A stretch of DNA of 62,069 nt from a virus: IMG/VR virus record IMGVR_UViG_3300030099_006113, positions 6,105 through 68,173 of that record; one strand, written 5' to 3'. The position numbers and the translations under genes are program-made. The number at the start of each line of letters is the position of its first letter. Positions within the stretch are counted from its first letter, which is position 1. Of this stretch, positions 27,348 to 62,069 are shown in pieces. The notes beneath the pieces were generated by a model, which saw only the letters and a list, made by a program, of their open reading frames with translations, had not been told where the DNA came from and made no database searches.

Positions 27348-28851
27348 TTTTTAGCTCCTGAATTTGAGTATGCATTTCTTGCAAGGCTTTTGTTAAGACT
27401 GCAACTAAATGCCCGTAAGACATCGACTTGCTGCCGTTTTCACCGAACACAACTTCGGGAATAATTTGCTCTACTTCTTGAGCAATAAAACCGATGTCTG
27501 CTTGGCCTGTTTTTTTGTAATCGTAACCAACGGGCCTTAGCTGCAAAACAGTTTCAAGGCCGTATGGAATTGTCTCAATATCGGACTTTAACGCAATGTC
27601 GGAAGCATCTGTGAATACTCCGGCAGCCGTTAGTTTTGCACCGCTGTCGTCAAGAATTGAATCACCAGTGCCTGCATTTTGAATTTCCAGTGCAACGGGA
27701 TTGTTGGTCGAATCATTTTGATCAACAACGACACAGGGCACGTTAGCGCCATCCGGGCAGTTGACTTGAAGTTGCCCGCTTGCATCAACACACTCGTGAT
27801 TTACGCCAAGCTTGTGATCATGGTCTACATTTATCGCAACCGAGTTTTGCATAATCAGAAAAAACATGTCGGCGTTGGTCCCGCCGCCATGCGTGTAGCG
27901 CAACTCTCCCGCCATCGAGTTTTGCGGATCTCCGAATGCAATTGTGTTGCGCGAAGTATTATTGCTTAGAAGTGAAATCCCTGGATGCGTGTTAGCCTCA
28001 ATAACCAGCATGTCTGCATGAGTGTTTGCGGAGCCGATTCCGGTGTCATCTTCTTTGATGTGGATTCCATTTGACGCGCAGATAGGCGAGCTTTCGGAAC
28101 CTGTGCTTAGTTTGCCACCGTCGAAAATACGGATAACGCTATCGTTTTGAATTCGAAGCCGCTCTGAGTTTGCAACTTGAAGCCTCAGTGAACCGGTGCC
28201 CTGATCGAAGGCTATTCCATCCGGTGTGCCACCAGTATTCTCATCGATAAAATACAGGCAGCCTTTGCCGTTTGTAGGTGTCAGGATTGAAATGCCTGTG
28301 TTGCCGCTGCCCTCCACAATCAAATCATCAGCGTCTGCATGGACGTCGCTAGAGGTTGCGGCTGAGTCGCCGGTTTTAAGGTGCAGCGAGCCCGCACCAC
28401 TGCCAAGACTGGTGGTCTCGCCGCCCGTCGTAATTTTACCATCTTGAAACACAGCCAAGTGGGTAGCGCTGTCGTTTGCAATCCCAAAGTTTGCGCCGGA
28501 GGATTTTAATCTGAATGCGATGTCGCCTTGAGATATTCCGAGAATGCCGTTTGAGCCTGCGCCGCTTACGTTTAAAACTGTAAAAAAATCATTTGTTGCG
28601 CCGCTCGGATCAGCCTCGACTCGAAACTCGCCATCAACGCTCAGAGTTCTAGAAAACGTAGGTTCGCCAATGTGAACATGCGCACCACCGCCCCCTAGAA
28701 TTACCCTTTCGGCTGAATCAGTGGTGTCAATTGCTAGGTAATTTTTATCGTCAATTGAATCAATCTCAAGCGCAGTGGTGTTGTTATCAGGAACAGCAAT
28801 AGTGCCCCCGCCAAGCGCGTTACCAAAGATAACTATATTTGCATCTGCCAT
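27337..28851 (-). CDS. tail fibre/spike with C-terminal S74 chaperone peptidase, 504 aa
   Basis: The long middle part is rich in Gly, Asp, Ser and Thr with beta-repeat character (LRLQVANSERLRIQNDS; ILGISQGDIAFRLKSSG), as in trimeric fibres. The last 88 residues match the S74 intramolecular chaperone: S417 in SDIALKSDIE with K422, then LRPVGYDYK, ADIGFIAQEV and a C-terminal coiled coil. The domain trimerises the fibre and then cuts itself off at the Ser. The 77-bp repeat (27,779-27,855) lies in this gene, so its N-terminal part may belong to genome B and its C-terminal part to A. Confidence 0.85.
   Translation of the reverse strand: MADANIVIFGNALGGGTIAVPDNNTTALEIDSIDDKNYLAIDTTDSAERVILGGGGAHVHIGEPTFSRTLSVDGEFRVEADPSGATNDFFTVLNVSGAGSNGILGISQGDIAFRLKSSGANFGIANDSATHLAVFQDGKITTGGETTSLGSGAGSLHLKTGDSAATSSDVHADADDLIVEGSGNTGISILTPTNGKGCLYFIDENTGGTPDGIAFDQGTGSLRLQVANSERLRIQNDSVIRIFDGGKLSTGSESSPICASNGIHIKEDDTGIGSANTHADMLVIEANTHPGISLLSNNTSRNTIAFGDPQNSMAGELRYTHGGGTNADMFFLIMQNSVAINVDHDHKLGVNHECVDASGQLQVNCPDGANVPCVVVDQNDSTNNPVALEIQNAGTGDSILDDSGAKLTAAGVFTDASDIALKSDIETIPYGLETVLQLRPVGYDYKKTGQADIGFIAQEVEQIIPEVVFGENGSKSMSYGHLVAVLTKALQEMHTQIQELKNGD
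27779..27855. repeat. 77-bp exact direct repeat, left copy (genome joint)
   Basis: Identical to 61,993-62,069, the last 77 bases of the window. Base 27,778 is G where 61,992 is A, so identity starts exactly there, and it runs to the end of the sequence. A length of exactly 77 matches a common assembler k-mer, which suggests that 27,856-62,069 is a closed circle and that the joint to A is a graph artefact or shared node. Confidence 0.9.
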
Positions 28852-28859
28852 GACTTACC

Positions 28860-29189
28860 TCACTTAACTGCTGTAATGTCTACCTTAAGAGCCCCGCCAC
28901 TACATGACGAACCAGTGTCATCACGGGTAACCACCAGGTGGGTAAGCTTCATGTCAAAGTTAGTTACGCTCAAAACGTTTTGAGTTAAATCAATGGTTTG
29001 AATGTCTGCTCTTGTACCAGTGGCGCCATTTGGCTCTTCAAAAACATATTTAACTTTTAGTCGGACGTTTGTAGATGCAGAGTGAGCAACAAGGGTGATG
29101 CTTGAATGGTTTCTAATCTTGAGCTCAAGGATGTCTGTTTCTGTAAGAGTAGACGCAGGGATAGTTTCTCTGTGAGTAAATGTACGCAT
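28860..29189 (-). CDS. small beta-rich structural-type protein, 109 aa
   Basis: Sits directly upstream of the tail-fibre gene with GGAGGATCTAA before the ATG. The sequence is beta-rich (TLTETDILELKIRNHSSITL; LKVKYVFEEPNG; THLVVTRDDTG) and ends SGGALKVDITAVK. Such short all-beta proteins are often adaptor or decoration proteins for fibres. It is first in the operon after a promoter at 29,251-29,280. No family recognised; by the joint analysis it belongs to genome B. Confidence 0.7.
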   Translation of the reverse strand: MRTFTHRETIPASTLTETDILELKIRNHSSITLVAHSASTNVRLKVKYVFEEPNGATGTRADIQTIDLTQNVLSVTNFDMKLTHLVVTRDDTGSSCSGGALKVDITAVK

Positions 29190-29250
29190 TTAGATCCTCC
29201 TATGGGCCAACAATGGCCAGGGCATATTTTCACCCTAAATGGATAGTAAA

Positions 29251-29280
29251 ATTATAGCCTAAAAAGTTAGCCCTCAACAA
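29251..29280 (-). promoter_or_regulatory. sigma70-type promoter for the fibre/lysis operon
   Basis: On the minus strand TTGTTG (29,280-29,275), an 18-base spacer, then a perfect TATAAT (29,256-29,251), about 60 bases before the 109-residue gene. The -35 box lies in the last codons of the 1084-residue gene, so the operon can also be read through. Confidence 0.65.
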
Positions 29281-32200
29281 TAGAAGACATTATTTCCCCT
29301 GTATTTGTTGCATTTTTCATTGGCTTAAATGAGGGCGGCCTTCCAGCTCCTCTTTGTTCTTGCGAAAAATTACCCATTAATCTGGACATTGTTGAAGCAT
29401 TGACAGCTGGAATGTCAAATAACTGACCAAGCGCTAGCTTGTCTGGTCTTGTAAGGTTTTTGTTTACATCAGGATCTGACAATGCCTGCATAACTTCAGA
29501 TCTAAATTCGTTATAAAACTGCGGTGATGTTTCTTTTACTGCGTCTATTACTTCTCTTGTAAGCGTATTATCTGCCAACCCATTTCCAATGGCGGTATAT
29601 GGATCTTCAAGGGCCTCGAGTATTCTTGCAAACTTTGCCATCTGCAATGAAGAGGGGAAAGGATCTTCATCAAATACAGAGGATATTCCAGCAGTAGGTA
29701 TGTTTCTATATGCGTACATGATTCTTTTACGCAAAACTTGTTTCATTATTGGTCTAATGTCACTGGTCTCATCTCCAAATGGAGAAGTAGCGGCATCAAG
29801 AAATTGCTCCATTGAGGTTGCATCTGTAGCTAAAAATGTAAGCAACTGCTTTGTTTCATCAAACTGTTCTTTTTGAATTGCCTCTGACCTAAATTCCTCT
29901 AGCAAATCTTTTCTTTTTTTATCTCTGGCTATTTCTTTTTTAAGCCCTTCTGGGTCTCTATATGCAGTCATAGGAAGAACAAAAGATCTTGCAATTGGCC
30001 TTTTCGGTATCTTGTCTTTTCCGCCAGTAGCCAGTTGTTTCATGTAGTTATTTACAAGATCTTTAGCCTGTTTTTGTCCGCTTTGAACCATGTGCTCCAT
30101 AAAGTACAATCTTCCAGCTGCACTCGTAGGATCAACAACAGCCTCAGCAACATTAACAGCAGCCCCAAGTGGCAGGCTATAAAGATATGCAAAGGGAAGA
30201 AATGGAGTCATTCTTCTAAAGAAATACTCATTTGCATTATGAGTTTGACCCTGAACCTGAGACCAACGCATAGCTGACTCAAGGTCTTCAGTTAAGAATC
30301 TTTTTAGTCTCTGTGTATTCTTTTGGGATTTCTTAACTCTTTTTAGTATTTCAGAATAGTAAGGCCGTATGCTTGTTTCACCTGGCTTAAACTCTTTACC
30401 AATGTACTCCATTAGCTTCTTTGTAAAAGCTGGTTTAAGTTTTCTATCGAAGTTATGGCTAGATAAAAGCTCTGACAGAACTTCTGCACCTAGTGAATGG
30501 TGTCTTTCCATTATCCCGGTTTTGGAATTAATATTTGTTCTGTTTAAACTTTTTAGCCAGGCAAGAACCTTTGCTTCATCTGCAAATGTTTCAAGACCTT
30601 CTTTTGCAAAGAACCCATCTTGGAATTGTTTATGGAGCTCGGCATAATCTTTTCTTTTTCTTCTGAACTGATTATTCCACATAGCAAGCTCACCAAACAA
30701 TTCTTGGTCATTCATAAAACCCTTTGCTGATGCTTCAACAGTATTCATTGCTTCTTCTGATGCATTGCCAGCAGTAAGGCCTTTAAGCCCACCAAAGTCT
30801 TTAAACTTAGTGTGATATATGTTGTTTATATCTTCAGCTCTTTTAAATGCAGCAGTAGACAGCCTTTTACTGTAAATTCCAGTAGCGCCCATTTGCTCCA
30901 GCAAGTTAATAAAAGCCTCAACATCGCCCTTACTAGCATGCACTCTAAGGCTTGATTGAATTTCAACAAGAGTCGGTCCTCTATTACCCATTCTGCTTTT
31001 AATGGCCTGAGCAAGACCGTCTCTTCCCTCAATCTTAATATTGCTTAAAAGATTAACCCAGCCAGCGGGGTTTATTGTTTTTGACTCTTTTATGCCTGTA
31101 GCCTTGCCTATGTTTGGCTCAAATATGCCGCTCATTTGTTGAGACCTTGTTGTCCATGCCTCTCTTAACTCTTTTGTTGCTGCTCCATTTCTTATTGGAA
31201 ATTGTCTTTTTAAAAAATGAGCTTGTTCTACAGCTGTATCACTAAGCATTTTAAATCTTTTAAGAGTTTCCAGAATGGAAGCATGCTCAGACCCACCAAG
31301 CATTTTAGATATAAACTCTTTGCTTATGCCCCTTCTGTCTGCCTGCTGAAGAATGTCTTCTATTAAAAAAGACTCATCTAGTGTTTTAGTCATCGATGAA
31401 GCAATGTCTTTTAAATGACCAGTTAATCTTTTTGCGTCTCTTCTTGCTTTTTGACCATCTTTACCGAGAGAGAACATAAGCTGGGCTTCTCGGATCTCAG
31501 ATGCAGATGCGCCTTGCTTTTGCATTGTAACTGCAATTTTTGCTAAAGAATCTGTTGTTGCTTTTGATATTTTTGAATTAGCAGCAAGCTGATAAACACT
31601 ACCCAAAGATCCAGTAGTTGCTGTTGCAATTCTTCCTAATAAAGGCAAACCGCCACTGAACCCCGCACCAAGAGCCGAGTTCAATATAGCATCAGAGCCC
31701 ATTCGGTTAACCATTGCTTCAACAGCATCTTCATTTGCAAGAGCAGCCTCAGACAGTCCCTGTCCAGCAGAATACAGGCCACCCTCAACAAGAGCCGCAG
31801 CAGCCCCACCAACAGTGCCTTTCATTAGGTCCGCAGTAAAAGGCGCAACATCATTTAAGGACTTCCCTTTTAGCCCTGGGATTGCTTTAGATGTTCCCTT
31901 GCCAACTAAACTTGAAACAGCTTTTTGAGTAGCAATACCAGCTCTAGAAGCTAATCCTGGTGCAGCCCCAGCGACTGTTTTTAATGCGCTTGTTCCTGGA
32001 GCACCAATAGCAACTCTTTTTAGCGTTTCCTTTGTACCAAGTCTTGCCCCAGCAGCCGTTGCTTTTGCAGACTGAGCAAATGCTGAAGCGCCACCAGATA
32101 AAATTGCCTGAATAACAGCAGAGCCAATACCGGCTCCATGATAAACGCCAGGGTTGTATTTTTGAATTTTTGCATATTTATCTGCAAGGTCATCGCTAAG

Positions 32201-32521: not shown

Positions 32522-32531
32522 TTAATTACCC

Positions 32532-34451
32532 TTAATCACCAAAGAATAAACTTCCAGATGCTTGTGCTTTATTCTCAGCGCTCATTAATCTTCTTTCTAA
32601 GGCCATTTTTCTTAGCCTATTGTCGTAAAACATTGATTCTTCAAAGTTAAGATTGTTTTCCTGAACGTCTTTAAACAGTTTTGATGGATCTTGAATTCCT
32701 ATCGTAGACATCCACGGAAGAAGAATAGGCTTGTTAGTCTCGCTGGTCAGCAAGTACCTAGTCATTGTTTGACCAACAACATCCATTTCAAACTTTTTAA
32801 GAACTGCCCTAATTTGGCTCAAATTATTACGAGCAAGAAAGCCCATAACGTCTTCTGTAAATTGCTGTTCTGACTCTGCAAGGTTACCCTTGTCTAGAGT
32901 TCTTGCGTATTGGCGAGCCAACAATCTTCCATTTTGCTGAAGCCTATCTGCAATGCTAAAAGGAAAATATTTCTTTGCATCAAAGTCTGCAACGATTCGA
33001 TCAATACTTCTTCCAGTATCACCACTTTCTCTTTCAAGAATATCGACAATTGCCAGAGCCTCCTGAAGGTTAGACATTGCCCTGTCGCTAGAAGTGTAAA
33101 ATTCTTTATCGGCAGTTGTTAGCTCTGCAATCTTTTTTTCTTTTGGTGCAGCTAAAGCTTTACTCATCTCTAAACGCATTAGCTTCATGCCATGCTCTCT
33201 TTGTTGAGCAGCAGAAGCAGCAGAAAGAGTTGCAGTTCTTTGACCAACTTCCTTAATTGCTTGATCCTTAAGAGCTGAAGCAAGCTTGTAGTTTGTAAGT
33301 TGCTCTTCATATTTGATGTCTTTTTTAAAAACAGAAAGAGCTGCTTGGTACTTTGGATTTGTAGCAAATTGAGCCAACTCTGGCTTAGCTGCAATTTGAT
33401 CAACAGCTGCACCAAACCTCCTCAACATAGCACCCCTGTAAACATTCATTTGATCTACAGTAGAATCAAAACGAGAAATTACAGCATTCAAACTATCTTG
33501 GCGGGCTTGTCTTTTTTCTGCTCTAAATGTAGCCATTTGACTGGCTTCCATTCTTTTAGCTTTAAAATCTGAATCAACAGCTTTAAAGAATGCAGTCATA
33601 AAGTAGTTTGGAATCTTACCCTCAGTACCAATACTTAAAAAGGTATTAAGAAATGTACCTGCAAGCCAAAAAACAGTGCTTGCTGTTTTTTTTGCACTGA
33701 AGTCATCATTATCGTCAAAGAATCCAATAAGGTCCCCAAAGGTGCCTGGAGCAGCTGGGGGTTTTTCATTCTTAAATGCCTTAAGTGTTTGCTCTGTTAG
33801 GTCATTAAATTTTTCTTGAGTAACTTTAGATATCTCACGAACAGCTTTTTCTTCACTTAAAGCAGCTTCATATTTTTCTTGCTGAAGCTTTTCGATGTCT
33901 TGAGCCGCTTCTAGCTCAAAAGTGTATTGCTCTAGTCTTTGCTCTTCTTCAAATTCTTTTAATTGTTTTTGCGTACTTGAGTATTTCCTGGTTGCTTTCT
34001 CTAGTTCTTGTGACCTATTTTTAATTTTACTATCTAGCCCTGCAAGTTTTTCGCTGTAAGCAACAGGGTCAGAATCAAGAAAACCAGTTAGCTCTTTTGA
34101 AGCAGCAGAAAATCTTTCAGCCTCTGCATATGTAGAAGCAGATGTTATATCTGGATTTCCATACAGCCTTGGGTCAATTCCTAGCTCACTTAGTGACATT
34201 TGCTTTTCATCATCACTAAGATCAATTGACTGACGTTTACCTAAATCATTGCCAGCAATTACCGCGTTTGTTTCGGCGCTTTTTTCAACCCTTTTGTCTG
34301 ACTCATCCATCATGGCTTTGGATCTTTTATCTCCAAGCCTACTGGACTCCATTTGGCTTTTAGCAACGTATCTTGCAAACTCGGGATTTTGAGGATCTGG
34401 CTCAGAGCTCATAAAAGGAATAGAAGAAAGTACTGATGGCACAACTGTCAT
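32532..34451 (-). CDS. coiled-coil internal virion-type protein, 639 aa (phage B)
   Basis: Mostly helical and very charged (LEKATRKYSSTQKQLKEFEE; LQQEKYEAALSEEKAVREIS), with one apolar segment near the middle (TVFWLAGTFLNTFLSIG) and more coiled coil after it (ATFRAEKRQARQDSLNAVIS). The size, helical content and position between two other virion-type genes resemble internal core proteins of podoviruses. AGGGG precedes the ATG. The A counterpart lies outside the window. Confidence 0.7.
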   Translation of the reverse strand: MTVVPSVLSSIPFMSSEPDPQNPEFARYVAKSQMESSRLGDKRSKAMMDESDKRVEKSAETNAVIAGNDLGKRQSIDLSDDEKQMSLSELGIDPRLYGNPDITSASTYAEAERFSAASKELTGFLDSDPVAYSEKLAGLDSKIKNRSQELEKATRKYSSTQKQLKEFEEEQRLEQYTFELEAAQDIEKLQQEKYEAALSEEKAVREISKVTQEKFNDLTEQTLKAFKNEKPPAAPGTFGDLIGFFDDNDDFSAKKTASTVFWLAGTFLNTFLSIGTEGKIPNYFMTAFFKAVDSDFKAKRMEASQMATFRAEKRQARQDSLNAVISRFDSTVDQMNVYRGAMLRRFGAAVDQIAAKPELAQFATNPKYQAALSVFKKDIKYEEQLTNYKLASALKDQAIKEVGQRTATLSAASAAQQREHGMKLMRLEMSKALAAPKEKKIAELTTADKEFYTSSDRAMSNLQEALAIVDILERESGDTGRSIDRIVADFDAKKYFPFSIADRLQQNGRLLARQYARTLDKGNLAESEQQFTEDVMGFLARNNLSQIRAVLKKFEMDVVGQTMTRYLLTSETNKPILLPWMSTIGIQDPSKLFKDVQENNLNFEESMFYDNRLRKMALERRLMSAENKAQASGSLFFGD

Positions 34452-34453
34452 AA

Positions 34454-35389
34454 TTAACCCCTAAGCATTTCAGCGGCAGTTTTAAGGCCACCGGCTCTAG
34501 CAGTTCTTCCCATAAAATTAGAACTTCCAGATGTTCCTGGAATTAAACGACCAGCAGTTGCACCTATTGCAGAACCGACAGCAGCACCAACAGGGCCACC
34601 AATAGCCATCCCAGCAGCACCACCAGCAGCAGCACCACCACCGCTAGCAACAGATCTAGCAGCGCCTCTTGGCGATCCAGAAATAAGCGCAGATCCAGCA
34701 GCAGTAAGGCCTTGAGTAATTGGACCACCTACAACTTCGCTAACTTCTTTAGATAGCCCAAGATTTGACAGAGCAGCATCAATTCCTTTTTGAACTGTTT
34801 CTTGACTAACAGCTGCTACCGCACTTCCTATGGCTGCTTTTCTTTGATCTTTATCTTTAATAGCCATTGCAGAGCCAATTCTAGTTCCAAAAGTTGCAGC
34901 TCTTTCAAACTTAGAAACTCTCTTTTGTCTTTCTTCTATTATTTTGCCTGTCTCTACCTGTGCTTTTTTTGCTTTTTCTTCAATTTTTTTTACCTCTTGA
35001 GTCTTTAAGGTATTTGCTTGTCTTCTTTCATTAATATTAGCCTGAGTTGCTGCCATTATCTGATCAGCTGGATTACTCGAACCTTCCATTGAAGCGAGGC
35101 TTTGACCTCTTGTAGGTCGTGTTTGCGAGAGCCTAGACATAATTGCTTCGTCAGACTCAGTATTGCGCAGCATTTCTCCAACTGGCTGCCTATTTAAAGC
35201 TGTTGGATTTGTAACAGATGGGGCAGTTTTAAATTGAGACTGACTACCCACCTCTCCTGCGCCAAAAGCATACGGAGTAATGTTTCGAAGAGATTCATCT
35301 TTCCTCATTAGGCTAGCAGCACCACGCTCAGCAGAACCAAGCCTATAAGCATGAAGAGGCGTAGGAATATTTTTTTTAGGCATAAACAT
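34454..35389 (-). CDS. glycine-zipper virion-type protein, 311 aa (phage B)
   Basis: A helical charged middle (KTQEVKKIEEKAKKAQVETG) is followed by a Gly/Ala zipper: GGAAAGGAAGMAIGGPVGAA and VGSAIGATAGRLIPG. Such zippers insert in or cross membranes and are found in phage ejection proteins. AAGGAGTGGTAA lies directly before ATG 35389. Function inferred from composition and place. Confidence 0.7.
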   Translation of the reverse strand: MFMPKKNIPTPLHAYRLGSAERGAASLMRKDESLRNITPYAFGAGEVGSQSQFKTAPSVTNPTALNRQPVGEMLRNTESDEAIMSRLSQTRPTRGQSLASMEGSSNPADQIMAATQANINERRQANTLKTQEVKKIEEKAKKAQVETGKIIEERQKRVSKFERAATFGTRIGSAMAIKDKDQRKAAIGSAVAAVSQETVQKGIDAALSNLGLSKEVSEVVGGPITQGLTAAGSALISGSPRGAARSVASGGGAAAGGAAGMAIGGPVGAAVGSAIGATAGRLIPGTSGSSNFMGRTARAGGLKTAAEMLRG

Positions 35390-37129: not shown

Positions 37130-40100
37130 TTACACCCTAGTTACACCAGCGCTTGAGTCGCCAATTGTTCTAGTTAGGTTGTAAACTGTTTCGTCTATGC
37201 TGTGTATCTGGCTATTAGGCAGAGATTGATTAAATTTATCCTCTGTATTAGCCATACGATAAATGCCTTTTTTACCACCAGTTTCTATAACTAGCGAACT
37301 AAGGGTAAATCCTTGAAGGGCAGAAAGGGTGCTATTTGAATCTGAGTCAAATATTTCAAACTTTAATGATTGGCATTTTTGGCGAGTTAAATGACCTCTT
37401 AACTGGAAACTGCCTTCAGCGGCTGGATCAAACTCAAGCTTAAAAATATCTACAGGAGCTACGTCATGATAATCATAATAAACATATATATTTAAATCAA
37501 AGTCTTCGCTTCCTACAATTTTACCAAGAAGGGCAAACTTATAAGCCCTTGCAAATCCTTGTATCTCATTTAAATGAATCCAACCTGTTTTAATCTTTAA
37601 CGGCATAAATGCCGATTGATTAAGGGTTTTAATGTCTGATCTTTCACCCCATAAATCATTTCCTGAAGTAGTCATGTAGACTATATTTTCAATTGAAAAC
37701 ATTCCAGAAAAAGTCTCAAGGCTAGATAGGGTGCTATATTCATAATGAGACCATTGGTTAAAGAATGAGTTATAGGCCATTACTTTTTTGTTTAGCAAAA
37801 ACCTAATTGTGCTTGTTGGCTGGTTTTGAATAATTTCTTTTACAATGTTGTCATCAAGTCTTTCAGAAGATGCATAAGCTTGACTTTGAGAGAATCCAAC
37901 AGTGTCCTCAACCATTGCACCAATAAATTCAACTTGCCCTTGGAATATTCGGTAGATGCCTTTTATGCTTTGGAAATAAAGGCCTGAGTCAGTATTAAGA
38001 GTAGGGGATCCTTTAATTGCACCAATACTATTGCTGATTAATCTTGGTGTAAAATAAGACCCTGAACCTGACTTTGATGGGCCATCTCCACTAATTACGT
38101 ATATTGATTTTTCTCTAAAGATATAGAGATCACCGCCAGCACTACCCAAGGCTGTAGGTTTATCATCCAAGGACCCATCAAGAGGAATAAAGAAAGAGTC
38201 TGAAAATGAAACACCAAAGCCTTCAACGTATTCTTTTGAAAACAAAATGCGATTATCTTCAGTAATAGCAAAAATTCTATTTCTGTGTTCTTTTATATAA
38301 AAACAAGCAGGCACAATTACATCAGCAAGTTCATTTGCATCTGTATAAAGAGATGCCCCAACTGCAACAACTGCATCTGAAAATGTATCAGCAAAGGTTG
38401 AGGTTCCTCCGCTATAGTCACTTTGGCCAGAAACTGTAGCAACTTTATTGTATAGATTTCCATCAGCCTGTGTTCTGTAGATGGAAACATAATAGTCATC
38501 ATGCTTTACCATCATTCCAATTTGCTCAAAGGTAATTACTGTTGAATCATTTGAGCTCATAGCAACAGAGACAGGGTCAGAAGGCTCTGACCTATAAAGA
38601 TTACCGTTAACGTCTTCTCTTTCAAATACAATTTTATACTTGTATGTCTTGTTAGACGTCATACTTCCAGACGTTCCACTAACAGCGACAGATGTAATTT
38701 CAGGCTTTGGCAAACCAGAAAGACTTACAATGTTCCCTCCATCGTCCTGGTACATTGCATTGCCAAAAGTAAAAAATACATTATCTCCAACAGCAGAGTG
38801 CCTTGTTCCATATGATGGCACACCTGTTGTAATTTTAATAATTTCGATAATAGAATTAGGAACAGCTTCTACTTCAGTAGCTGATGTTGGAAATGTGTTA
38901 ATGTTTGTAGTTCTTGGGACAGCTGTATAGAACTCTTCCGGGGTATTACCAGAGCTAGAGTATCCAACAACTTTGCATGGCCCAAAAGGAGAATACTCTG
39001 GACGATATGATTGAGTTAAAGATCTTCCAACAATTGTACCACTACTGTTATTCGTATCAACGTGAAAGCTTACGGTAGACAGCTCTTTGTTTGAGCTATA
39101 GGCATTGCTTCCTCCAAATATCGTTATAAATTTGTTAGTCGTATTTTCATACTGGAACCCTTGAACAGAAGATCTTCCTCTTCCTAAACTTAATGCTGAA
39201 GAAATACTAACCGATGGGCCTGATGTAGGACGTGTAATTCTGTAAATTGACTGAGTTATTGAGTTTTCATTAGGTCCATCCTCAAACATTAAAGCAACAG
39301 AATCTATAGAATCATCATAAAGAGGTTCATGATCAACAAACCCATGGGGCTGGAAGTAAGTTGAAGAATTAGTAAAGTTTGAATGATTTGCACCTGTTGA
39401 TGGATTTATATCAACAGAAGAAAGCCGAATAGTAGTTCCAGTTCTGTATGCAATATAATACTTACTAACAGCAGATGAAAACGTAGTTCCTGCTGTAGAG
39501 TGACCAAGTACAAGCCTTGTTTCTGGAGCCGTGCTACCAAGGCCATCAGAAATATCAGTAGAGTTTACTGGTGAAAAACTGCCATCAGGATCACTGTCTA
39601 TAACATAACGAACAGAATGGGTTCCTGAATTGTTTTTATAATAAACAACTACAATTCCATCAATATCATCTGAGTCAGCATGTAAAACATCAAACCATTG
39701 CTGAGACGTTGTTTGGTTGTAGTCATTCGTTGAACCACCAATAACCACTCCATTACCAGCGAGAGAAGGCATTGTTACAGAAGAAGTCCCAATGCTTAAA
39801 TGGTCCCTTCTTAGTTCATAGTTGCTTCCATTTTTATACTCATAATAAACATTAAAGCATCCGTTTGAACTAGAGTGAGCACCAGCGCTAACTACTTTAA
39901 TTTTGCCCTGATAAGTATATTGAGCAGCGCTTCCTGTTCTTGCCTCTGATGTAGCAACAACAGTCATTCCTTCTCTTTCTATAAGATTAACAACATGGCT
40001 ATAGTTCTTTGCTCTATTAGTGTAATCGTAATCAACCTTTAAATATGCAACGCATATGTAATCACCAAAAATTGCAATGCTTGGGGCTTCTTCATGGTGC

Positions 40101-41065: not shown

Positions 41066-41757
41066 TAGTAACTCCAACGAGAAGCGGGAAGAATGCCTGT
41101 TGTTTCATCTGTAATGCCAAATGGTTCAGCTGCATCTCTGTTACTTGCGGCGTTTTCAATTCTAGCAGTAATTCTACTAAGCTCGCGCTCAAATGGCGAT
41201 GTAGATGTTTCTTCTTTCTGAAGCATTTTCATTGCCGCAACAATCACTGCATACTCTTCCCAGTTCAAAGCAATTGATGAAGACACTGAATCAGAGTCGG
41301 ATGAAAGCTTTTGAAAAGAAGGCACATAATGGATTGTAATAGAATCGGTGCTGTTTGGAGTAGGAATAAAAACAACGTTATCGCCACGAATAGAATATTC
41401 ATAAGCGGCATATCCCCTGTTATTATACAGAACGTCATTATAAGCGTATTTGTTTCTGTCCGGAAATGAGAATCTTTTAACTCGCACTATGTCGTTACCA
41501 TAAGAGGCATCAACCCCAATAACCTTGTAAAAGTCATCAAGTCCTATTGAGTTAAATGAATACTCACCAGTGCCAGATGTTAGAGAAAAGGACACAGAGC
41601 TGATGTAGTAATCTTCAAACTTCATAACCAAAAGGTCATGCAGTTCACCAAGTCCTGTGTTGATGTAATCATTGATCTCAGAATCAGTGAAAAAATTGTT
41701 ACCTACAGCATCGGCTCTTTGCCTTGCTCGGGTCCTTAACTCTAACAGTGTAGACAT
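41065..41757 (-). CDS. head-tail adaptor/tail-tube-like protein, 230 aa (phage B)
   Basis: Opens with LELRTRARQRADAVGNNFFT and DSEINDYIN, aligned with the A protein at 4,276-5,004. Later shared blocks include IRGDNVVFIPTP against IQGNKIKFIPSP and IHYVPSFQKL against LHYIPEAQQF. Near the C-terminus RIENAASNRDAAEPFGITDETTG matches A. Coupled to both neighbours by TAATG overlaps. Confidence 0.85.
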   Translation of the reverse strand: MSTLLELRTRARQRADAVGNNFFTDSEINDYINTGLGELHDLLVMKFEDYYISSVSFSLTSGTGEYSFNSIGLDDFYKVIGVDASYGNDIVRVKRFSFPDRNKYAYNDVLYNNRGYAAYEYSIRGDNVVFIPTPNSTDSITIHYVPSFQKLSSDSDSVSSSIALNWEEYAVIVAAMKMLQKEETSTSPFERELSRITARIENAASNRDAAEPFGITDETTGILPASRWSY

Positions 41758-44559: not shown

Positions 44560-46383
44560 CTAGATAGGTAATCCACCTGGTGGCATGCCTGGTGGTAAAG
44601 CTGGCGATCCAGGGGCTCCTCCCATTGGAGCAGCTCCAGGCATCGGTTGTGGTGGTTGCGCCATTTGAATCAAAGCTTCTGCTTGAGAAATCCATCGCCT
44701 AAGTAGCTCTAGTCTTTCTTCAGGTACCTGGTTTAAGATTGCCAGGTTATATGCTTGTTGAAATCGGACAATTCCATACTCAAGATTCATGTATGGCTCA
44801 GGTGACACAAAGTTTCCGTTTTCAACCATTTCCTCAATGGCCATATCAAGCACTTCGATATGGGCATTTTTAAGCTTGTTTGCTCTTTCAAGATCAGGAA
44901 AATCTAAAAGCCTATGAGCTTCTTCTTTTGTGAACAATCCATTCTGAGTCATCTCAGTAACAGATGCTAGCTTTGCTGCTGGGGTCTGAGGCAATGAGCC
45001 AATTGGTTTGATTTGCATGACATACTGATCTTCATCGAGATCTACATCACCCCATGAAATTTTATCTAAACCAGACTTAGAATCAAAACTCATGGATGTG
45101 TAAGGAGAGCCTGGACTGTGAAGGTCCCTTACAAGATCAATAATTTTTTCTGCTGTTTTTATGAAAAGGCTCTCATACGATTGGCCAACAACCATAAAAC
45201 GCTCTGACTCAATGTCTGAAAACTCTCTAAGAGCTCGGCCAGATTCAAGACCCGCTGGCTTTTTAGATTGAGCAGAAAGCTGAGAAATGCCTGTCATCTC
45301 ATAAGCACGGGCAACAAGTCGGTCTAGGTGTGCAAACATCTCACCAGAAACAGCCCTGGGCACAAAAAACTGAGGAGGGCTACCCCTGTATTTTATTGCT
45401 CCCCAAACTCTATTGTTTAAATGAGACTGCACAATCCTACTAGTGTCTTCAATAAACACCTTGGGAGTTGCTAGGTGCATTTGCTCTTGGATCCTAGCAA
45501 GGAGCTTATTAATCTCTACCTGAATACCTTTTACTTCCTTTGCCAGGCCATTACCCCAGAAAGAATTAGGGTCTTCAGTCCAACGAACAAAGACAAAAGG
45601 AAAATGGTGCTTCTCATATTCACCATCATAAAGAGTCACGTTTTCAGTGCATATAACGTGTCTGCCGTCTTTTGCTTCTGGCCCAGAGGGCAAGTGCCAA
45701 GCCTCATGGCAAAACACCATATCATTGTCTCGAGTATTATCACTGTAGCTATCGTTCTGAGACTCAATGACTTCCATCAGAATCTCTTCCCTTTTATCCG
45801 GGAACATCTCAGCTAAAACATGCTTTGAGACTTTTTTAGTCTGGAACATCTGCCGGGGCATTGAGCCAAACTCAGACTCATAATGATCAATTGTGATCTC
45901 ATGAAGAGGGACACGCTCAATCTTTACTTTGCCAAACTCAGAGAAAACCTTAAGAATTCCTGTTCCAGTAATGCATGAATCAAGAAAACATTTTTGAGCT
46001 AATGGATAAATATCAAGAGAGTAAAATTGTCCCTGTATAAACTTGTTAAAGTTCTTTGCTTTTTTCTTCTGAGAGAAATCACCGCCTTCAGTTAAAAAAC
46101 TAATTGCAGGTTTATGCTTTGCAATCTTGGCAGTAGCAGCCTGGCATATAGAGTGGATAATGTTAAAAGTAAGTCGAGGTTGACGCATCATGGCATAACC
46201 AGTTGATGCAATGTATCCCTTGTAACTTACAGGCTGGCCATTATAGAGGCCTGAGTGAGTTGCAGCTTCAGAGTAAAAAGATTCCTGCTCCTCTCTTAAT
46301 ACAGAGATAAAGCTGGAGATTTGATCGGCTGGCTCACTATCTGCCTGCCACCAAAACTTATTATCGTATACTCCGTAGCTCAT
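44560..46383 (-). CDS. portal protein, 607 aa (phage B)
   Basis: Shares FWGNGLAKEVKGIQVEINKL, IQEQMHLATPKVFIE and SAQSKKPAGLESGRALREF with the A portal and has a Pro/Gly/Met-rich C-terminal tail. The start overlaps the 88-residue gene as ATGA. Forms the packaging vertex together with the terminase. Confidence 0.9.
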   Translation of the reverse strand: MSYGVYDNKFWWQADSEPADQISSFISVLREEQESFYSEAATHSGLYNGQPVSYKGYIASTGYAMMRQPRLTFNIIHSICQAATAKIAKHKPAISFLTEGGDFSQKKKAKNFNKFIQGQFYSLDIYPLAQKCFLDSCITGTGILKVFSEFGKVKIERVPLHEITIDHYESEFGSMPRQMFQTKKVSKHVLAEMFPDKREEILMEVIESQNDSYSDNTRDNDMVFCHEAWHLPSGPEAKDGRHVICTENVTLYDGEYEKHHFPFVFVRWTEDPNSFWGNGLAKEVKGIQVEINKLLARIQEQMHLATPKVFIEDTSRIVQSHLNNRVWGAIKYRGSPPQFFVPRAVSGEMFAHLDRLVARAYEMTGISQLSAQSKKPAGLESGRALREFSDIESERFMVVGQSYESLFIKTAEKIIDLVRDLHSPGSPYTSMSFDSKSGLDKISWGDVDLDEDQYVMQIKPIGSLPQTPAAKLASVTEMTQNGLFTKEEAHRLLDFPDLERANKLKNAHIEVLDMAIEEMVENGNFVSPEPYMNLEYGIVRFQQAYNLAILNQVPEERLELLRRWISQAEALIQMAQPPQPMPGAAPMGGAPGSPALPPGMPPGGLPI

Positions 46384-46653: not shown

Positions 46654-48150
46654 TCAGTTTACCCACAGATCTTCTTCTGAAATCCCAATTCCCCATAGAT
46701 CTGGATCATACTTATCCTGGCTGTCTCTCTCAAGAAGATTATCAGCAATACGCTCCTCAAGCTGCTTGAAGTAATCTTTTGTACCCACTTCGGGTCCCGA
46801 TCCCTCATATTCATGTAGAAAGTGACGACTTTCTGTCCAAGCATAAAGAGCGGCATCCGAAAGGTGATTATCAAACCTTCTATCTTCTGCTGTTCTTGAT
46901 TTGTTGTACTGTAGCTTGTCCCACTCTTTTAGCAGGTCCATTCCACTGGCTACTTTGATTACACCGTTCTTGATGTCTGAGTTCATGAGTTTAATCATGC
47001 CCATTTTGTCGGATGACTTTTTGGCTGGCTTAATTGGTAGCCCAGAGCGCTCTTTGAATGTCTCAAGCAACATTCTTGATGAACCACCGCCAGTATCCAT
47101 TACAATGGAAGAGAAATCATAATCGCCCATAAATGCGTGGATTTTTTCTTCAACCTCAGAAGTCAGCATCTTGGTTTGCTTGTATTCATCAATGAAGAAA
47201 AGGAATGGATGATCTGGTGACCAAGCAGCGACGACAAAGGCGGTAGCATCATGGTAACCGAGGTCGATACCGAGGACGAACTCCCAGTCATTACTTTCGG
47301 GAGTATCCTCAAGCAAGTTGTCCTCAGAGTACTCGTAGACGATATCTTGGTCGTTTCTTACCCAGAGTCCCAAGTACTCGCGCTTATAGGAGGAATCAGT
47401 TGGGTCAAGAACCCCACTTTTGATGTCAGCCTCTATGGATCTGACAGCGTGCGCCATGTAGGGATTATTTTTAACTGTCCACCTGTGAACTGAAAAGCTG
47501 TATTTATCCTTTTCAGTAATGTCATAAAAAAATCCTGAACAAGAACTATTAGGCGTAGAAATTAAAACCAGTGCGCCGTCTCTATCAAGCAAAGCAGGAG
47601 TTAAAACTTCGTTTACGAGCTCGCGTAAGTTGATGTTAAAAAAAGCAGCTTCATCAAGAACAGCCAAGGAAAATGCTGCACCGCGTAATTTATCCACGTC
47701 ACTTGCATCGTTGGCACCAGTAAAAAGAATCTGAGATCCATTAGGAAAGGTAGCTACAAGGTCTGCATTATTAAACTTAATACCAATCCTAAATCTTTGG
47801 TTAGCCTCCTTAAGGGAAGCCCACAAAATCCTTTTAGCCGCCTCTCTTGTCCTAGCAATGTAGACACACATGGTGCCTTCGTTCTCAAGGGCCTCTTTGA
47901 TTAAATAACGCCCTGCAGCATAACTCTTTCCACTTCTTCGACTGCATATAGCAGCCTTCCTCTTTGAAGGGTCGTTAATGAAATCAAGCTGCTCTTTAAA
48001 CAAGTTACGAGTCATGTTGAGCATTCGGCTATGCTCAGATCTTCGCTGGGCTTTGTTCTTAGAGGGACCGGTATGGCCAGACCTGGACACAAAAGCCTCA
48101 TAAAGCTCTCGACTAGTAAGGCTAATCGTTGGCAGCTTGGTCTTAGCCAT
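46654..48150 (-). CDS. terL: terminase large subunit, 498 aa (phage B)
   Basis: ICSRRSGKSYAAG is the Walker A-type loop and LAVLDEAAFF the Walker B; LISTPNSSCSGFF corresponds to the coupling segment. The nuclease acids appear in LGIDLGYHDATAFVV, VMDTGGGSSRM and DNHLSDAALYAW, each matching A. I chose ATG 48150, which overlaps the GNAT stop (ATGGCTAA); an upstream in-frame start at 48,189 would add 13 residues. Confidence 0.95.
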   Translation of the reverse strand: MAKTKLPTISLTSRELYEAFVSRSGHTGPSKNKAQRRSEHSRMLNMTRNLFKEQLDFINDPSKRKAAICSRRSGKSYAAGRYLIKEALENEGTMCVYIARTREAAKRILWASLKEANQRFRIGIKFNNADLVATFPNGSQILFTGANDASDVDKLRGAAFSLAVLDEAAFFNINLRELVNEVLTPALLDRDGALVLISTPNSSCSGFFYDITEKDKYSFSVHRWTVKNNPYMAHAVRSIEADIKSGVLDPTDSSYKREYLGLWVRNDQDIVYEYSEDNLLEDTPESNDWEFVLGIDLGYHDATAFVVAAWSPDHPFLFFIDEYKQTKMLTSEVEEKIHAFMGDYDFSSIVMDTGGGSSRMLLETFKERSGLPIKPAKKSSDKMGMIKLMNSDIKNGVIKVASGMDLLKEWDKLQYNKSRTAEDRRFDNHLSDAALYAWTESRHFLHEYEGSGPEVGTKDYFKQLEERIADNLLERDSQDKYDPDLWGIGISEEDLWVN

Positions 48151-48601
48151 AAGCAACTCTTTGCTCTTCAGGCGAAGACATAAGCTCAAATATAAAAGCA
48201 GGAAGAAGACTACTTACAAAACGAGTGTGCCATTTAGACCGAGCATCCATTTTCTGCATATGAAAGGACCAATAAGAGCAAAAAACAGGGTTATCTCTAT
48301 TACGCACTGTGTCAGGGTATACCTCATTGAGCATTTCACTGCCAATACCATTACCTCTGAAGCTTTTTTTAACAAAAAGAAAGTGCAGTAATTTTGTTTC
48401 TTCTATCTGGCCATAGGCAATCCAGCCTAAAATATGGTCAGCATCGTCTCGGTCGCAGTAAATAAGGACTTTTTCGTCCTCAATAACTTTATCAATGAGG
48501 TGCCTAGTCATAGCAGTTACTGCTTTTGTGGGGCATTTCACAGATCTAATCCACGAATCATAGACAAAATCGTGGTCAATGGGTCTGATTCCTCTAATCA
48601 T
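48143..48601 (-). CDS. GNAT-like acetyltransferase, 152 aa (phage B)
   Basis: IRGIRPIDHDFVYDSWIRSV at the start, then LHFLFVKKSFRGNGIGSEML, which contains the GNAT acetyl-CoA motif R-G-N-G-I-G, and a C-terminal AYG. It sits between the small terminase candidate and terL as in A. The substrate is unknown; conservation in both genomes argues for a packaging- or takeover-related task. Confidence 0.85.
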   Translation of the reverse strand: MIRGIRPIDHDFVYDSWIRSVKCPTKAVTAMTRHLIDKVIEDEKVLIYCDRDDADHILGWIAYGQIEETKLLHFLFVKKSFRGNGIGSEMLNEVYPDTVRNRDNPVFCSYWSFHMQKMDARSKWHTRFVSSLLPAFIFELMSSPEEQRVAYG

Positions 48602-53140: not shown

Positions 53141-53959
53141 ATGAGTAAGAAGGTACAAGAAATTGTAACGAGCAAGATTATTGAGGCTCTTGAAGCGGGA
53201 GTGGCTCCATGGAGAAAGACATGGAAAACGGCAAGATCCAAGAACCTGATTAGCGGTCGTCCATATTCAGGTGCCAATGCCCTGCTTACTCATCCGATGG
53301 TTACAGGATTCAAGGAGCCATCCTTTGTAACCAAGAATCAAATCAAACAAATGGGCATGAAGGTTAAAGAGGGTGAGAGATACATTCCTATTATTTTTTA
53401 TGGAACTGGTAAAAACAAAGAGACGGAAAAATCATTCCGTTTTCAAAGATTTTATCCTGTTTATAACGTTGAACAAATTGAAGGATTTGAGATCTCAGAA
53501 CAGAAAGAAAACAGAGAAGAATGCATCAACAAGAATGCTGAAGAAATAATTGCAGAATGGGCAGGTAAACTACCAATTAGGTATGGCAATCATAACCCAT
53601 GCTACTCTCCAATGGTTGATACAATCTTTATGCCTGAAATAAAATCCTTTGAATCAGATGCTGAGTATTACAGCACAATATTCCATGAGTTATCTCATGC
53701 GACTGGTCATGGATCTAGGCTTAACCGCGAAAGCGTTGCCTCACTAAAGAGGGACTCTCACAAGTATTCTGAAGAGGAACTTGTAGCAGAGTTAGGTAGT
53801 GCATTCCTCTGCCATTACACAGGCGTTGAAGGCGTATTCGACAACCAAGCGAGCTACTGTCAGAACTGGCTTTATGCCCTTAAGAATGACCGTAGCATTA
53901 TCCTGCGAGCCGCAAGGCAAGCAGATAAATCTTTTAAACTAATAATTGGAGAATCTTAA
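53141..53959 (+). CDS. ArdC-like antirestriction/ssDNA-binding metallopeptidase, 272 aa (phage B)
   Basis: The N-terminal ssDNA-binding domain is recognised by IIEALEAGVAPWRKTW, PYSGANALL and FVTKNQIKQMGMKVKEGE. A zincin domain follows with HELSHATGH (H182, E183, H186) and EEELVAELGSAFLC as the likely third-ligand helix. ArdC proteins protect incoming DNA from restriction or help process single strands. GAGG precedes the ATG. A has no equivalent in the window. Confidence 0.9.
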   Translation: MSKKVQEIVTSKIIEALEAGVAPWRKTWKTARSKNLISGRPYSGANALLTHPMVTGFKEPSFVTKNQIKQMGMKVKEGERYIPIIFYGTGKNKETEKSFRFQRFYPVYNVEQIEGFEISEQKENREECINKNAEEIIAEWAGKLPIRYGNHNPCYSPMVDTIFMPEIKSFESDAEYYSTIFHELSHATGHGSRLNRESVASLKRDSHKYSEEELVAELGSAFLCHYTGVEGVFDNQASYCQNWLYALKNDRSIILRAARQADKSFKLIIGES

Positions 53960-57615: not shown

Positions 57616-57618
57616 AAA

Positions 57619-58363: not shown

Positions 58364-58747
58364 TTATGTTCCAAAGATTAAAACATCACAGTCAACAGCA
58401 GCACTATTCGCAACAAGAGCAAGATTGTTTGCCACTGTGAAGTCTGTGATAATTAAAAATCCTCCAGCATGAACTCTTATCACATTGTCATTCGTGCTGT
58501 TTCCTGCACTTCTGAATGTTGCTGTAACGTAATTTGTTGAGTCATTGTTTTTAACGACGACTGCTGTTGCCGAGGAAAGATGGCTTGTCGTTACTGTAGT
58601 TCCTCCAGTATTTGCCTGCACTTCCATGTGCATAAACTCATCTGGTGTTACTGCATATTCTGCTGGATTAAATGAGACCTTTGGTGACTTGTAAGTAGAA
58701 AAGGTAGAGTAGGTGCCTTCTAGCTCTAGCTTTGCGTAGTCTGCCAT
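58364..58747 (-). CDS. beta-rich structural-type protein, 127 aa (phage B)
   Basis: CTAGGAGATAATAA precedes ATG 58747, which overlaps the previous gene by 22 bases. The sequence is beta-rich (TATFRSAGNSTNDNVIRVHA; GGFLIITDFTVANNLALVAN). Last gene of the B lysis operon; A has none at this place. A virion surface or adaptor role is a guess from composition. Confidence 0.7.
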   Translation of the reverse strand: MADYAKLELEGTYSTFSTYKSPKVSFNPAEYAVTPDEFMHMEVQANTGGTTVTTSHLSSATAVVVKNNDSTNYVTATFRSAGNSTNDNVIRVHAGGFLIITDFTVANNLALVANSAAVDCDVLIFGT

Positions 58748-59457
58748 TTATTATCTCCTAGTATCCCATCTTCTTGCTGGTTTTCTTTTTTGGCATTGTT
58801 TTCTTCTTTGCCTTTTTCTTTACCTTCTTCATTGGCTTGCTCTTCATCGCCTTCATAGAACCATTTTTCATCATGACAGTAATTCCTTAATGTGTTTGAA
58901 AAGTATACTTCTTCGCATGCTTCAAAGTCTGGTGGACCTTGTACTTTGGTTAGACTTTGTTCAGTCCAGAGAATTCTGTTGTTAGGCATTGAGCAGTATT
59001 GGCCATTCTCTAGGGCTAGTATGTTTTGGCTCTTGTGCTCTTTAGGTATAGATGCGCATGTTGGCATTAGCTCTCCGTTGGCATCACATTGATCTACAGT
59101 GCAAATGTATGTACCGCCAACTAGCTCGTTCCCAATCCTTACCTTTGCGTCAAGGTGCCTAAGAGCGTCTTTAACAATCGTAGTAATAAACCAGGTATCA
59201 ATATCCCAAAGAGCAAGATCAGACTGCTCAAACCTAAAATCGCCTTCTCTGTCGTGGACAAAGGCCTCAATGGGTAGCTTGTCATAAAGAGCGCCATTCT
59301 CGAGTAAAGTCTCAAACAAAAGAGCTCGATGTTTCTGGGCCTTAACGCTTACCCAGTAACCCTTCATGAATTCTCCATGGCCTTTCTTTCCATTGTAAAG
59401 GAATTCCTTCCTTACAAAGACAGGCTCAAGGGGTAAGTTTGCTACTAAAAAACTCAC
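58726..59457 (-). CDS. conserved phage protein SFLVANLPLEP family, 243 aa (phage B)
   Basis: GTG 59457 overlaps the previous stop (GTGA). SFLVANLPLEPVFVRKEFLY, the KGYWVSVKAQKHRALLFETL block and ENGQYCSMPNNRILW match the A protein (24,249-24,917) closely. The C-terminal tail is again a Lys/Glu/Asn-rich low-complexity segment but longer. Function unknown. Confidence 0.8.
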   Translation of the reverse strand: MSFLVANLPLEPVFVRKEFLYNGKKGHGEFMKGYWVSVKAQKHRALLFETLLENGALYDKLPIEAFVHDREGDFRFEQSDLALWDIDTWFITTIVKDALRHLDAKVRIGNELVGGTYICTVDQCDANGELMPTCASIPKEHKSQNILALENGQYCSMPNNRILWTEQSLTKVQGPPDFEACEEVYFSNTLRNYCHDEKWFYEGDEEQANEEGKEKGKEENNAKKENQQEDGILGDNKWQTTQS

Positions 59458-59708: not shown

Positions 59709-59710
59709 AT

Positions 59711-59839
59711 CTATTTCTTCTTTTTCTTGGAAACCTTCTTCTTTTTCCTGGAAATACCCTCAAGCGTCTTAGCCTGTGAAGCATGCAGCTTTGATGCTTT
59801 TTTTAGGCCCTTGATTACTTTTTTAATTTTTTTTTGCAT
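59711..59839 (-). CDS. tiny Lys-rich protein, 42 aa (phage B)
   Basis: ATG 59839 overlaps the previous stop (TAATG), TAG at 59,713-59,711, two bases before the next ATG. Sequence IKKVIKGLKKASKLHASQAK and a Lys-run end. The pattern resembles tiny aquatic-phage proteins. Exact fit between neighbours supports it. Confidence 0.65.
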   Translation of the reverse strand: MQKKIKKVIKGLKKASKLHASQAKTLEGISRKKKKVSKKKKK

Positions 59840-60030
59840 TAGTTTTTATAACCTCCGCCAGCGGCTTTGTATTGCTTAGCCAGCATTTGAGCTTTTCTTG
59901 CAGACCATTGGCCTGGTTTACCACCTTTTCCGCCTGCTTTGATTTTATTGAAAAGCCTTTTACGCATAGCTGGCTTTGTATAGTTGCCAGACTGATTGAC
60001 TTTGCTTTTTGTTTTTCTCTTTGCAGCCAT
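59839..60030 (-). CDS. small basic protein, SARKAQMLAKQYKAAGGGYK family, 63 aa (phage B)
   Basis: ATG 60030 directly follows the TAG of the endolysin-type gene. KSKVNQSGNYTKPAMRKRLF and QWSARKAQMLAKQYKAAGGG define a family common in aquatic phages, of unknown function. In A the PKKKDPK gene takes this place. Confidence 0.75.
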   Translation of the reverse strand: MAAKRKTKSKVNQSGNYTKPAMRKRLFNKIKAGGKGGKPGQWSARKAQMLAKQYKAAGGGYKN

Positions 60031-60597
60031 CTACCATTCCTCAAGTAGCGTGTATGAGAATGACTCACAGCCGAGTGTAGCTATTTGCATTCTTGCAAGC
60101 CTCATCATCTCATCGAAGTCTGACTCATTAGCCAATACCTGGCAACCAGCAGACCATCTATCTACTCTTGAGCTGCTTTCACCTGCTTTATGACAATTGA
60201 TTCCAAAGAAGCCAGTGTCCTTTGGTCCATTCATATCTGCCTGGTTGTCCCTGTCGGCATCTCTCCATACGGTAACTTCGGCTCCTCTTTGGCAGAGTGC
60301 TTCATACTTGCCAGCATGTAAGCCAATCTCCCATACTCCCGGGTAATGGCCAGGGCAGAGTATTGCTGTTCCTTTTATTTGTAGAGGATTTAGCAGGTAA
60401 TACTGACCAGGATCAGTAGTAGCGGTCCAGTAATGAGCCATCCATTGGCCACCCTGGCGATACGTGCAGGTTAACATGTCGTCGAATTTGTTTGGCGCAC
60501 CGTTTTTTTTTCTCACACCTACAATGTTGAGATCGTATTGTCCGTCGAAGACAGGGTAACCCATCGCCTTCTTCTGGGCTAATATTGGGGGCAGCAT
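60031..60597 (-). CDS. putative peptidoglycan-acting enzyme (endolysin-like), 188 aa (phage B)
   Basis: Nearly identical to the A protein (25,817-26,383), with FFGINCHKAG and DRWSAGCQVL as the His...Ser-Gly-Cys motif; note Cys beside the His here where A has Leu. ATG 60597 follows the stop of the -1 frame extension without gap. Likely endolysin of the operon. Confidence 0.75.
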   Translation of the reverse strand: MLPPILAQKKAMGYPVFDGQYDLNIVGVRKKNGAPNKFDDMLTCTYRQGGQWMAHYWTATTDPGQYYLLNPLQIKGTAILCPGHYPGVWEIGLHAGKYEALCQRGAEVTVWRDADRDNQADMNGPKDTGFFGINCHKAGESSSRVDRWSAGCQVLANESDFDEMMRLARMQIATLGCESFSYTLLEEW

Positions 60598-60825
60598 CTA
60601 AAACCTCCACTTTATTCCTGCCGTTGTTTGCCAATCTAAACCTTCATTCAACTCTATGCCTGCATCAACAAAGGCACTTAACCCTTCAGTAATTTCTCCG
60701 CTAATCTCTGCAAAGGCTTCGGCGCGTACTTCAAAAGCACTAGACCCGAGAACACGTAAGCCGAGATCAAAAGCACCGTTAGACGCGTTCCTCGACTTAA
60801 CGGCATCTCTTATTCCTCCGGCGAC
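60598..60825 (-). CDS. -1 frame extension of the holin, 75 codons (phage B)
   Basis: Reads VAGGIRDAVKSRN onward to TAG at 60,600-60,598, the same length as in A, ending IKWRF. No start codon is available in the frame near its beginning. Codon-by-codon comparison with A shows mostly third-position changes (for example GAC/GAT, GCG/GCA, GGA/GGG, TTC/TTT, CAG/CAA), so this frame, not the overlapping ATG frame, is under protein-level selection. Confidence 0.75.
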   Translation of the reverse strand, partial: VAGGIRDAVKSRNASNGAFDLGLRVLGSSAFEVRAEAFAEISGEITEGLSAFVDAGIELNEGLDWQTTAGIKWRF

Positions 60826-61043
60826 TTTTTTACTTGAGACACAGCCTCCGCAGATGCAAGAGCTCGTTTTACTGTAGCCCTGGATTGAGAGTAGCTAGCC
60901 CCACAAACAGCAGCTAGGATAGGCCCTCCGACTTGAGCCCACTGGGAATCGGAGAAGATGGCACAGAGGCAACCACCAATCATACCTAATAATGTCATTA
61001 GGAACTCTGAACTCTTAAGGCCGTTAGTCTTGCCTTGAATCAT
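60810..61043 (-). CDS. holin, zero-frame product, 77 aa (phage B)
   Basis: Two membrane segments (FLMTLLGMIGGCLCAIF and VGGPILAAVCGASYS) and the same QVKKSPEE tail as A. Differs from A mainly at LKS/LRS and Ile/Cys positions. Stop at 60,812-60,810, with the slippery site four codons earlier. Confidence 0.85.
   Translation of the reverse strand: MIQGKTNGLKSSEFLMTLLGMIGGCLCAIFSDSQWAQVGGPILAAVCGASYSQSRATVKRALASAEAVSQVKKSPEE
60825..60849 (-). promoter_or_regulatory. -1 ribosomal frameshift signal in the holin gene (phage B)
   Basis: A-AAA-AAG at 60,831-60,825 in the GTA AAA AAG phase, with GGAGG (60,849-60,845) 13 bases upstream, exactly as in A, although the bases between differ at several positions. 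Confidence 0.75.
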
Positions 61044-61314
61044 CGCGTTCTCTCCTATCCCGCTCTACTGCGTCTTTGATATCCATGCGGCGAATAATCT
61101 CATACGTATTGCTCAACGCCTCACGCGTCTTGTCGCTTACATCGTCAACCCTGTCGCTTAACGCCTCTAGCTTTTCCTCGTTAACCGCTAGCTTAGATGC
61201 AAGTCCATTGCCGTTATGCTTTGGGTTTCGCTTGTCACTGAATCTTTCGGCCAGGCGCATGCCTACAACGATTGCCGCAACAACGCCCCCGCCGAGTGCC
61301 GATTCAGGATCCAC
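61024..61314 (-). CDS. membrane-anchored coiled-coil protein, spanin-like, 96 aa (phage B)
   Basis: GTG 61314 (VDPESALGGG), one base after the previous stop. GGGVVAAIVVGMRLAERF then the coiled coil VNEEKLEALSDRVDDVSDKT; almost identical to A. Overlaps the holin gene by 20 bases. Confidence 0.75.
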   Translation of the reverse strand: MDPESALGGGVVAAIVVGMRLAERFSDKRNPKHNGNGLASKLAVNEEKLEALSDRVDDVSDKTREALSNTYEIIRRMDIKDAVERDRRERDDSRQD

Positions 61315-61315
61315 G

Positions 61316-61561
61316 TTAGTCCTCGCTTGCCGTTGCGTCTTCGACGGTGTGGCCGCCTTCGCTCATTTTGGCTTTTAGCGCGTCAACGGCACTGTCAATT
61401 AGCGATGTGACGCCGTCGCCTTCAAGCGGTAGGTTAACGCCGAAGCGCGTGTTGTCCACTTCAGGTAGCGTTGCAATTGCTTGACATGATGCGCTTACGC
61501 TGTTGTCAGCGATTGATTTAGTGATAGTCACCTGGACGGTGTGTAAGGTTTTAGTCGCCAT
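61316..61561 (-). CDS. small conserved protein, 81 aa (phage B)
   Basis: TLHTVQVTITKSIADNSVSA and the FGVNLPLEGDGVTSLIDSAV block match the A protein (27,102-27,347). Overlaps the fibre gene stop by 11 bases. Function unknown. Confidence 0.75.
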   Translation of the reverse strand: MATKTLHTVQVTITKSIADNSVSASCQAIATLPEVDNTRFGVNLPLEGDGVTSLIDSAVDALKAKMSEGGHTVEDATASED

Positions 61562-62069
61562 TTTTCAACTCCTGGATTTGGCCATGCATCTCTTGCAGGG
61601 CGCGGGTCAAGACAGCAACCAGATGCCCGTAAGACATCGACTTGCTGCCGTTTTCGCCAAAAACAACCTCGGGAATAATTTGCTCAACCTCTTGAGCGAT
61701 AAAGCCGATGTCTGCTTGGCCGGTTTTTTTGTAGTCGTAACCAACGGGCCTTAGCTGCAAAACAGTTTCAAGACCGTAAGGGATTGTCTCAATGTCAGAC
61801 TTTAACGCAACGTCAGAAGCATCCGTGAAAACTCCGGCAGCAGTTAGCTTTGCACCGCTGTCGTCAAGGATTGAATCACCAGTCCCTGCATTCTGAATTT
61901 CTAGTGCAACGGGATTGTTGGTCGAATCATTCTGATCGACAACGACACACGGCACGTTGGCGCCGTCCGGGCAATTGACTTGCAGCTGCCCACTTGCATC
62001 AACACACTCGTGATTTACGCCAAGCTTGTGATCATGGTCTACATTTATCGCAACCGAGTTTTGCATAAT
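61551..62069 (-). CDS. partial tail fibre, C-terminal part with S74 chaperone domain (phage B)
   Basis: The frame enters from the right edge and covers the last ~172 residues: fibre sequence, then SDVALKSDIETI with the catalytic Ser/Lys, LRPVGYDYK and ADIGFIAQEV. If 27,856-62,069 is circular, the missing N-terminal part is at 27,856-28,851, giving a complete gene across the joint. Confidence 0.85.
   Translation of the reverse strand: MMQNSVAINVDHDHKLGVNHECVDASGQLQVNCPDGANVPCVVVDQNDSTNNPVALEIQNAGTGDSILDDSGAKLTAAGVFTDASDVALKSDIETIPYGLETVLQLRPVGYDYKKTGQADIGFIAQEVEQIIPEVVFGENGSKSMSYGHLVAVLTRALQEMHGQIQELKNGD
61993..62069. repeat. 77-bp exact direct repeat, right copy (window end)
   Basis: Identical to 27,779-27,855 and ends exactly at the window end. 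The base before it (A at 61,992) differs from the left copy. See the left copy for interpretation. Confidence 0.9.

Follow-up and report, generated by a model that had tools for sequence, protein, structure and literature searches.

Does the virus record IMGVR_UViG_3300030099_006113, 68,173 bp in full, describe a single molecule, or two phages that were joined during assembly? The window, that is, the whole stretch of DNA analyzed here (62,069 nucleotides), comprises bases 6105-68173 of this record; positions below are those of the window unless given as record positions. The question arises from a repeat: positions 27779-27855 are identical to positions 61993-62069 over exactly 77 bp (repeat v), the bases that precede the two copies differ (G versus A), and the last base of the second copy is the end of both the window and the record. 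A second 77-bp repeat, u, links record positions 1-77 to window positions 28621-28697 (record 34725-34801), with a mismatch at base 78, so that each end of the record coincides with one of the two repeats. Across the word lengths tested, the word at either end of the record has two occurrences for lengths of up to 77 and a single one from 78 upward; the end overlaps thus have one fixed length k and are flush with the contig ends (77 bp, unique at 78).

The window contains no direct repeat longer than 48 bp other than v and no inverted repeat of at least 25 bp, and an exact search of IMG/VR with v produced no match. In a packaged phage genome, a terminal direct repeat is the same sequence at both genome ends and usually lies outside genes. 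Such a repeat is ruled out here, given that the record ends are different 77-mers, each recurring inside the fiber gene.

Two loops in the k=77 graph

A de Bruijn graph with k=77 was built from the record sequence. Its only branching vertices are u and v (two per strand), and it has no dead ends except at a gap of N. The graph is a figure-eight of three edges, through which the record is the walk A-E-B:

27779..27855, no strand: 77-mer v, copy 1, exact repeat; A meets the shared segment E
61993..62069, no strand: 77-mer v, copy 2, exact repeat; B and the record both end here
28621..28697, no strand: 77-mer u, copy 2, with exact 77-bp identity to copy 1, which lies before the window at record 1-77 and starts A
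Record 1-33959: edge A of the k=77 graph, 33,959 bp, u to v
Record 33883-34801 (window 27779..28697), no strand: edge E, 919 bp, v to u, inside the fiber gene and in both loops, bounded by v and u
Record 34725-68173: edge B of the k=77 graph, 33,449 bp, u to v
1..27855 (record 6105-33959), no strand: genome A, the part within the window; A begins at record base 1
27856..62069, no strand: genome B, one full loop including E, 34,214 bp

When closed, loop A measures 34,724 bp and loop B 34,214 bp, with G+C contents of 51.7% and 42.9%, respectively. Each loop contains one terminase, one portal, one capsid, and one intact 504-aa fiber and, taken alone, is a complete genome (A with a gap of 10 N). 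The gene order is parallel in A and B: terminase, portal, capsid, large virion proteins, fiber, endolysin. The gap, which we take to be a scaffolding gap, occupies record positions 6095-6104 inside a 175-aa gene of A, directly before the start of the window; its two sides do not overlap, which rules out closing it by overlap. Genes located on the two genomes include:

7771..9585, minus strand: portal protein of A
44560..46383, minus strand: portal protein of B
9760..11187, minus strand: terminase large subunit of A (PHROG 2), 43% identical to that of B
46654..48189, minus strand: terminase large subunit of B (PHROG 2)
25817..26383, minus strand: endolysin-like gene of A, 90% identical to that of B at the amino acid level
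60031..60597, minus strand: endolysin-like gene of B

The original prediction, made on the window, had described the 77-bp repeat as exact, with a mismatch before both copies and the window ending at the last repeated base, and had delimited 27856-62069 as a closed 34,214-bp unit, B, with one set of core phage genes; both descriptions are confirmed. The accompanying claim that A lacks the internal virion genes and the fiber N-terminus proved to be a window-edge effect: these genes of A lie within record positions 1-6335, a stretch largely cut off by the window's start at record base 6105. A is not a broken phage either, as it spans from one border of E to the other and closes into its full loop. 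As for the joint itself, the k=77 overlap stands, but the lone 77-mer gives way to a shared 919-bp fiber segment with a 77-mer at each border; because the joint is this segment, the crossing from A to B has no definable position within E.

The fiber gene compared with the rest of the genomes

E is the middle of the tail-fiber gene, which is unbroken, at 504 aa, across the closure in both loops:

27337..28851, minus strand: fiber gene across the joint, composed of the C-terminal part of A, E, and the N-terminal part of B; 504 aa, with an S74 chaperone domain near the C-terminus
61551..62069, minus strand: C-terminal part of the fiber of B itself, continuing at 27856-28851 upon loop closure; 504 aa

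The fibers of A and B share 94% amino acid identity. Beside E, 66 of 154 bases differ in the part before it, and 50 of 442 in the part after it, which contains the Peptidase_S74 chaperone domain (dS about 0.64). In the alignment of the homologous stretch of A and B leading to v (2,069 columns, 84.5% identical), v is the longest exact run, and the next longest is 44. The core proteins are about 24-43% identical where alignable (terminase, 43%; capsid, 39%; the large internal protein, 24%, over a portion of the protein). The fiber region is thus far more alike between A and B than the core genes are, as in a shared module. The fiber protein used as a query produced no match in IMG/VR.

Assembly joint, joint molecule, or merged fiber versions

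We consider it very probable that the record is one walk through the k=77 figure-eight graph and that two complete circular phages sharing E were joined by the assembler. Two co-occurring phages, each assembling as a circle, would have in common a 919-bp piece of the fiber gene that is identical or almost so; the assembler would have kept a single copy of E, entered it from A, exited into B and, after one round of B, ended at the 77-mer at which B leads back into E. We infer that loops A and B are separate molecules, and the identity of the assembler and its k would follow from the repeat length; 77 is a common last k of assemblers. As an artifact, the joint is ordinary and of a known kind: metaSPAdes and MEGAHIT contigs carry maxK end overlaps, one cause of which is sequence common to different genomes (PMC10914622). 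The likeness to the COBRA study (PMC10914622) lies in a contig-end overlap of exactly one k-mer length that stems from sequence common to genomes; the difference is that here the assembler would have passed through the shared region, leaving both genomes in one record with no break.

The relatives found in IMG/VR have one gene set each (B-type records of 31.9, 35.3, and 37.5 kb; the A-type records are partial), and the two-genome record stands apart from them. Two other genomes show putative closures of their own, namely G002, with a 106-bp exact repeat at its ends, and G016, in which bases 1-126 recur at 39223-39348, near its end.

A true heterodimer of about 68.9 kb, in which co-infecting phages recombined at E into a joint A+B molecule (a concatemer or cointegrate), would look the same in the graph: one circle with two copies of E gives an identical k=77 graph, so that sequence alone does not tell the two arrangements apart, and E would be a natural site for homologous recombination. 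Such a molecule would, however, hold two complete complements of packaging and capsid genes, against one set in about 32-37 kb in the relatives, and a real molecule does not need both repeat lengths to fit one common k. Two circles are strongly favored by how large the relatives are and by the presence of two full gene sets, and we regard the heterodimer as highly improbable. The original prediction had proposed two different co-occurring phages joined in assembly, with a real hybrid being less likely; both points are supported, but not the incompleteness of A, and the original interpretation is thus right in part.

A separate concern is that E might not be truly common, the assembler having merged differing mid-fiber versions into one path so that only the two 77-mers are identical. 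The assembly holds a single copy of E, with the identity of A and B over it never directly seen, and the C-terminal part of the fiber differs at the 50 positions given above, all of which would fit such merging. Yet both borders would still need exact 77-bp matches, of which about 0.01 are expected per border in a stretch of this size at 11% divergence by our own estimate, and a differing version of sufficient length would normally yield contig ends of its own rather than ends flush with E. This explanation therefore appears unlikely, and E is probably a real shared piece of the fiber gene. Small differences between A and B within E may still have been merged, because their identity over this segment is known only through the assembly.

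Possible exchange of fiber parts, and known systems

Under the assembly of two phages that share E, this segment would have become common to A and B through a recent recombinational exchange of the fiber shaft, which hints at a recent swap of a putative host-recognition part between the two phages. The endolysin suggests a longer history. Its synonymous sites are saturated between A and B despite the 90% protein identity; it is present in 8 of the 27 relative records and in none of the 12 B-type ones, most of which are partial; and the endolysin tree resolves one fork only and yields no direction of transfer. Set against the identity of E, the divergence of the endolysin and its absence in B-type relatives suggest a putative transfer of the fiber/endolysin region into B by at least two steps, one of them older and the other, which moved E, much more recent. 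The G+C content of this region in B is 50.0%, compared with 42.5% in the rest of B (a level that 29 of 588 windows of B reach is the 50.0%), which suggests, if weakly when taken alone, an A-like source.

A second knotted assembly is G020, IMG/VR record 3300030117_006378 (41,234 bp), the last 76 bases of which (41159-41234) recur at 154-229. An A-type fiber N-terminus is encoded at the start of G020, and a B-type one, which shares 91% identity with B across residues 1-65, at its end; both enter one shaft at DTTDSAERVILG. G020 thus resembles the record studied here in its repeat between end and interior, in the fiber codons involved, and in the two N-terminal types. It differs in that the overlap is 76 bp rather than 77, the second N-terminal version is represented by only 153 bp, the fiber is 680-681 aa long with a different shaft, and the portal and capsid are of another sequence type; tblastn detects no match between the portal and capsid genes of G020 and the proteins of A or B. 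That the fork recurs at these codons with another shaft supports genuine swapping of fiber parts at the linker, for which the two records would be two cases; in IMG/VR, G020 was the only match to the linker pattern. A more general proposition, which we offer tentatively and consider rather doubtful, is that co-occurring phages with different core genes share a pool of fiber shafts, each attachable to one or the other of two N-terminal adapter types, and that swaps at one conserved linker, DTTDSAERVILG..A.VHIG.PT, are frequent enough to tie assembly graphs at that codon position.

Two further genes merit mention. A gene at 24249-24923 (A) and 58726-59457 (B), 88% identical between the two, carries the PHROGs label 'ferredoxin', an auxiliary gene family of cyanophages; it is about 42% identical to cyanophage homologs and occurs also in G020 and G017, and the label looks doubtful for the gene of A and B. 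At 53141-53959, B encodes an ArdC-type antirestriction protein with ArdcN and zincin-like metallopeptidase domains.

No GenBank phage matched the capsid proteins of A and B, a result that marks A and B as new phages of a little-sampled group. The terminase has only distant matches among GenBank phages, the best being about 26-27% identical among the matches listed. In bacterial genomes, one MAG contig was matched; named Acidiferrobacteraceae bacterium (Tara Red Sea), it encodes a terminase 58% identical to that of B and provides a weak hint of habitat or host.

The record is best handled as two complete phage genomes; left joined, it would convey a doubled genome size, false gene duplication, and false linkage. 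The joint is mildly interesting as a marker of fiber exchange, in that it marks a putative host-recognition piece common to phages that differ in base composition and core genes, and the sharing of this piece makes a common host a testable prediction. The recurrence of a contig-end k-mer inside the same contig may offer a cheap means of finding fiber swaps in assembled viral data.

Phages are already known to exchange adhesin modules. A host-recognition module is common to the otherwise unlike Alteromonas phages A5, V22, and P24 (PMC10579305), in which, as in A and B, the fiber and adjoining genes are alike and the other genes differ. The Alteromonas phages, however, show no similarity elsewhere, and their module is old (58.8% similar), whereas A and B are distantly homologous, have their genes in parallel order, and carry a fiber stretch of 919 bp that appears identical.
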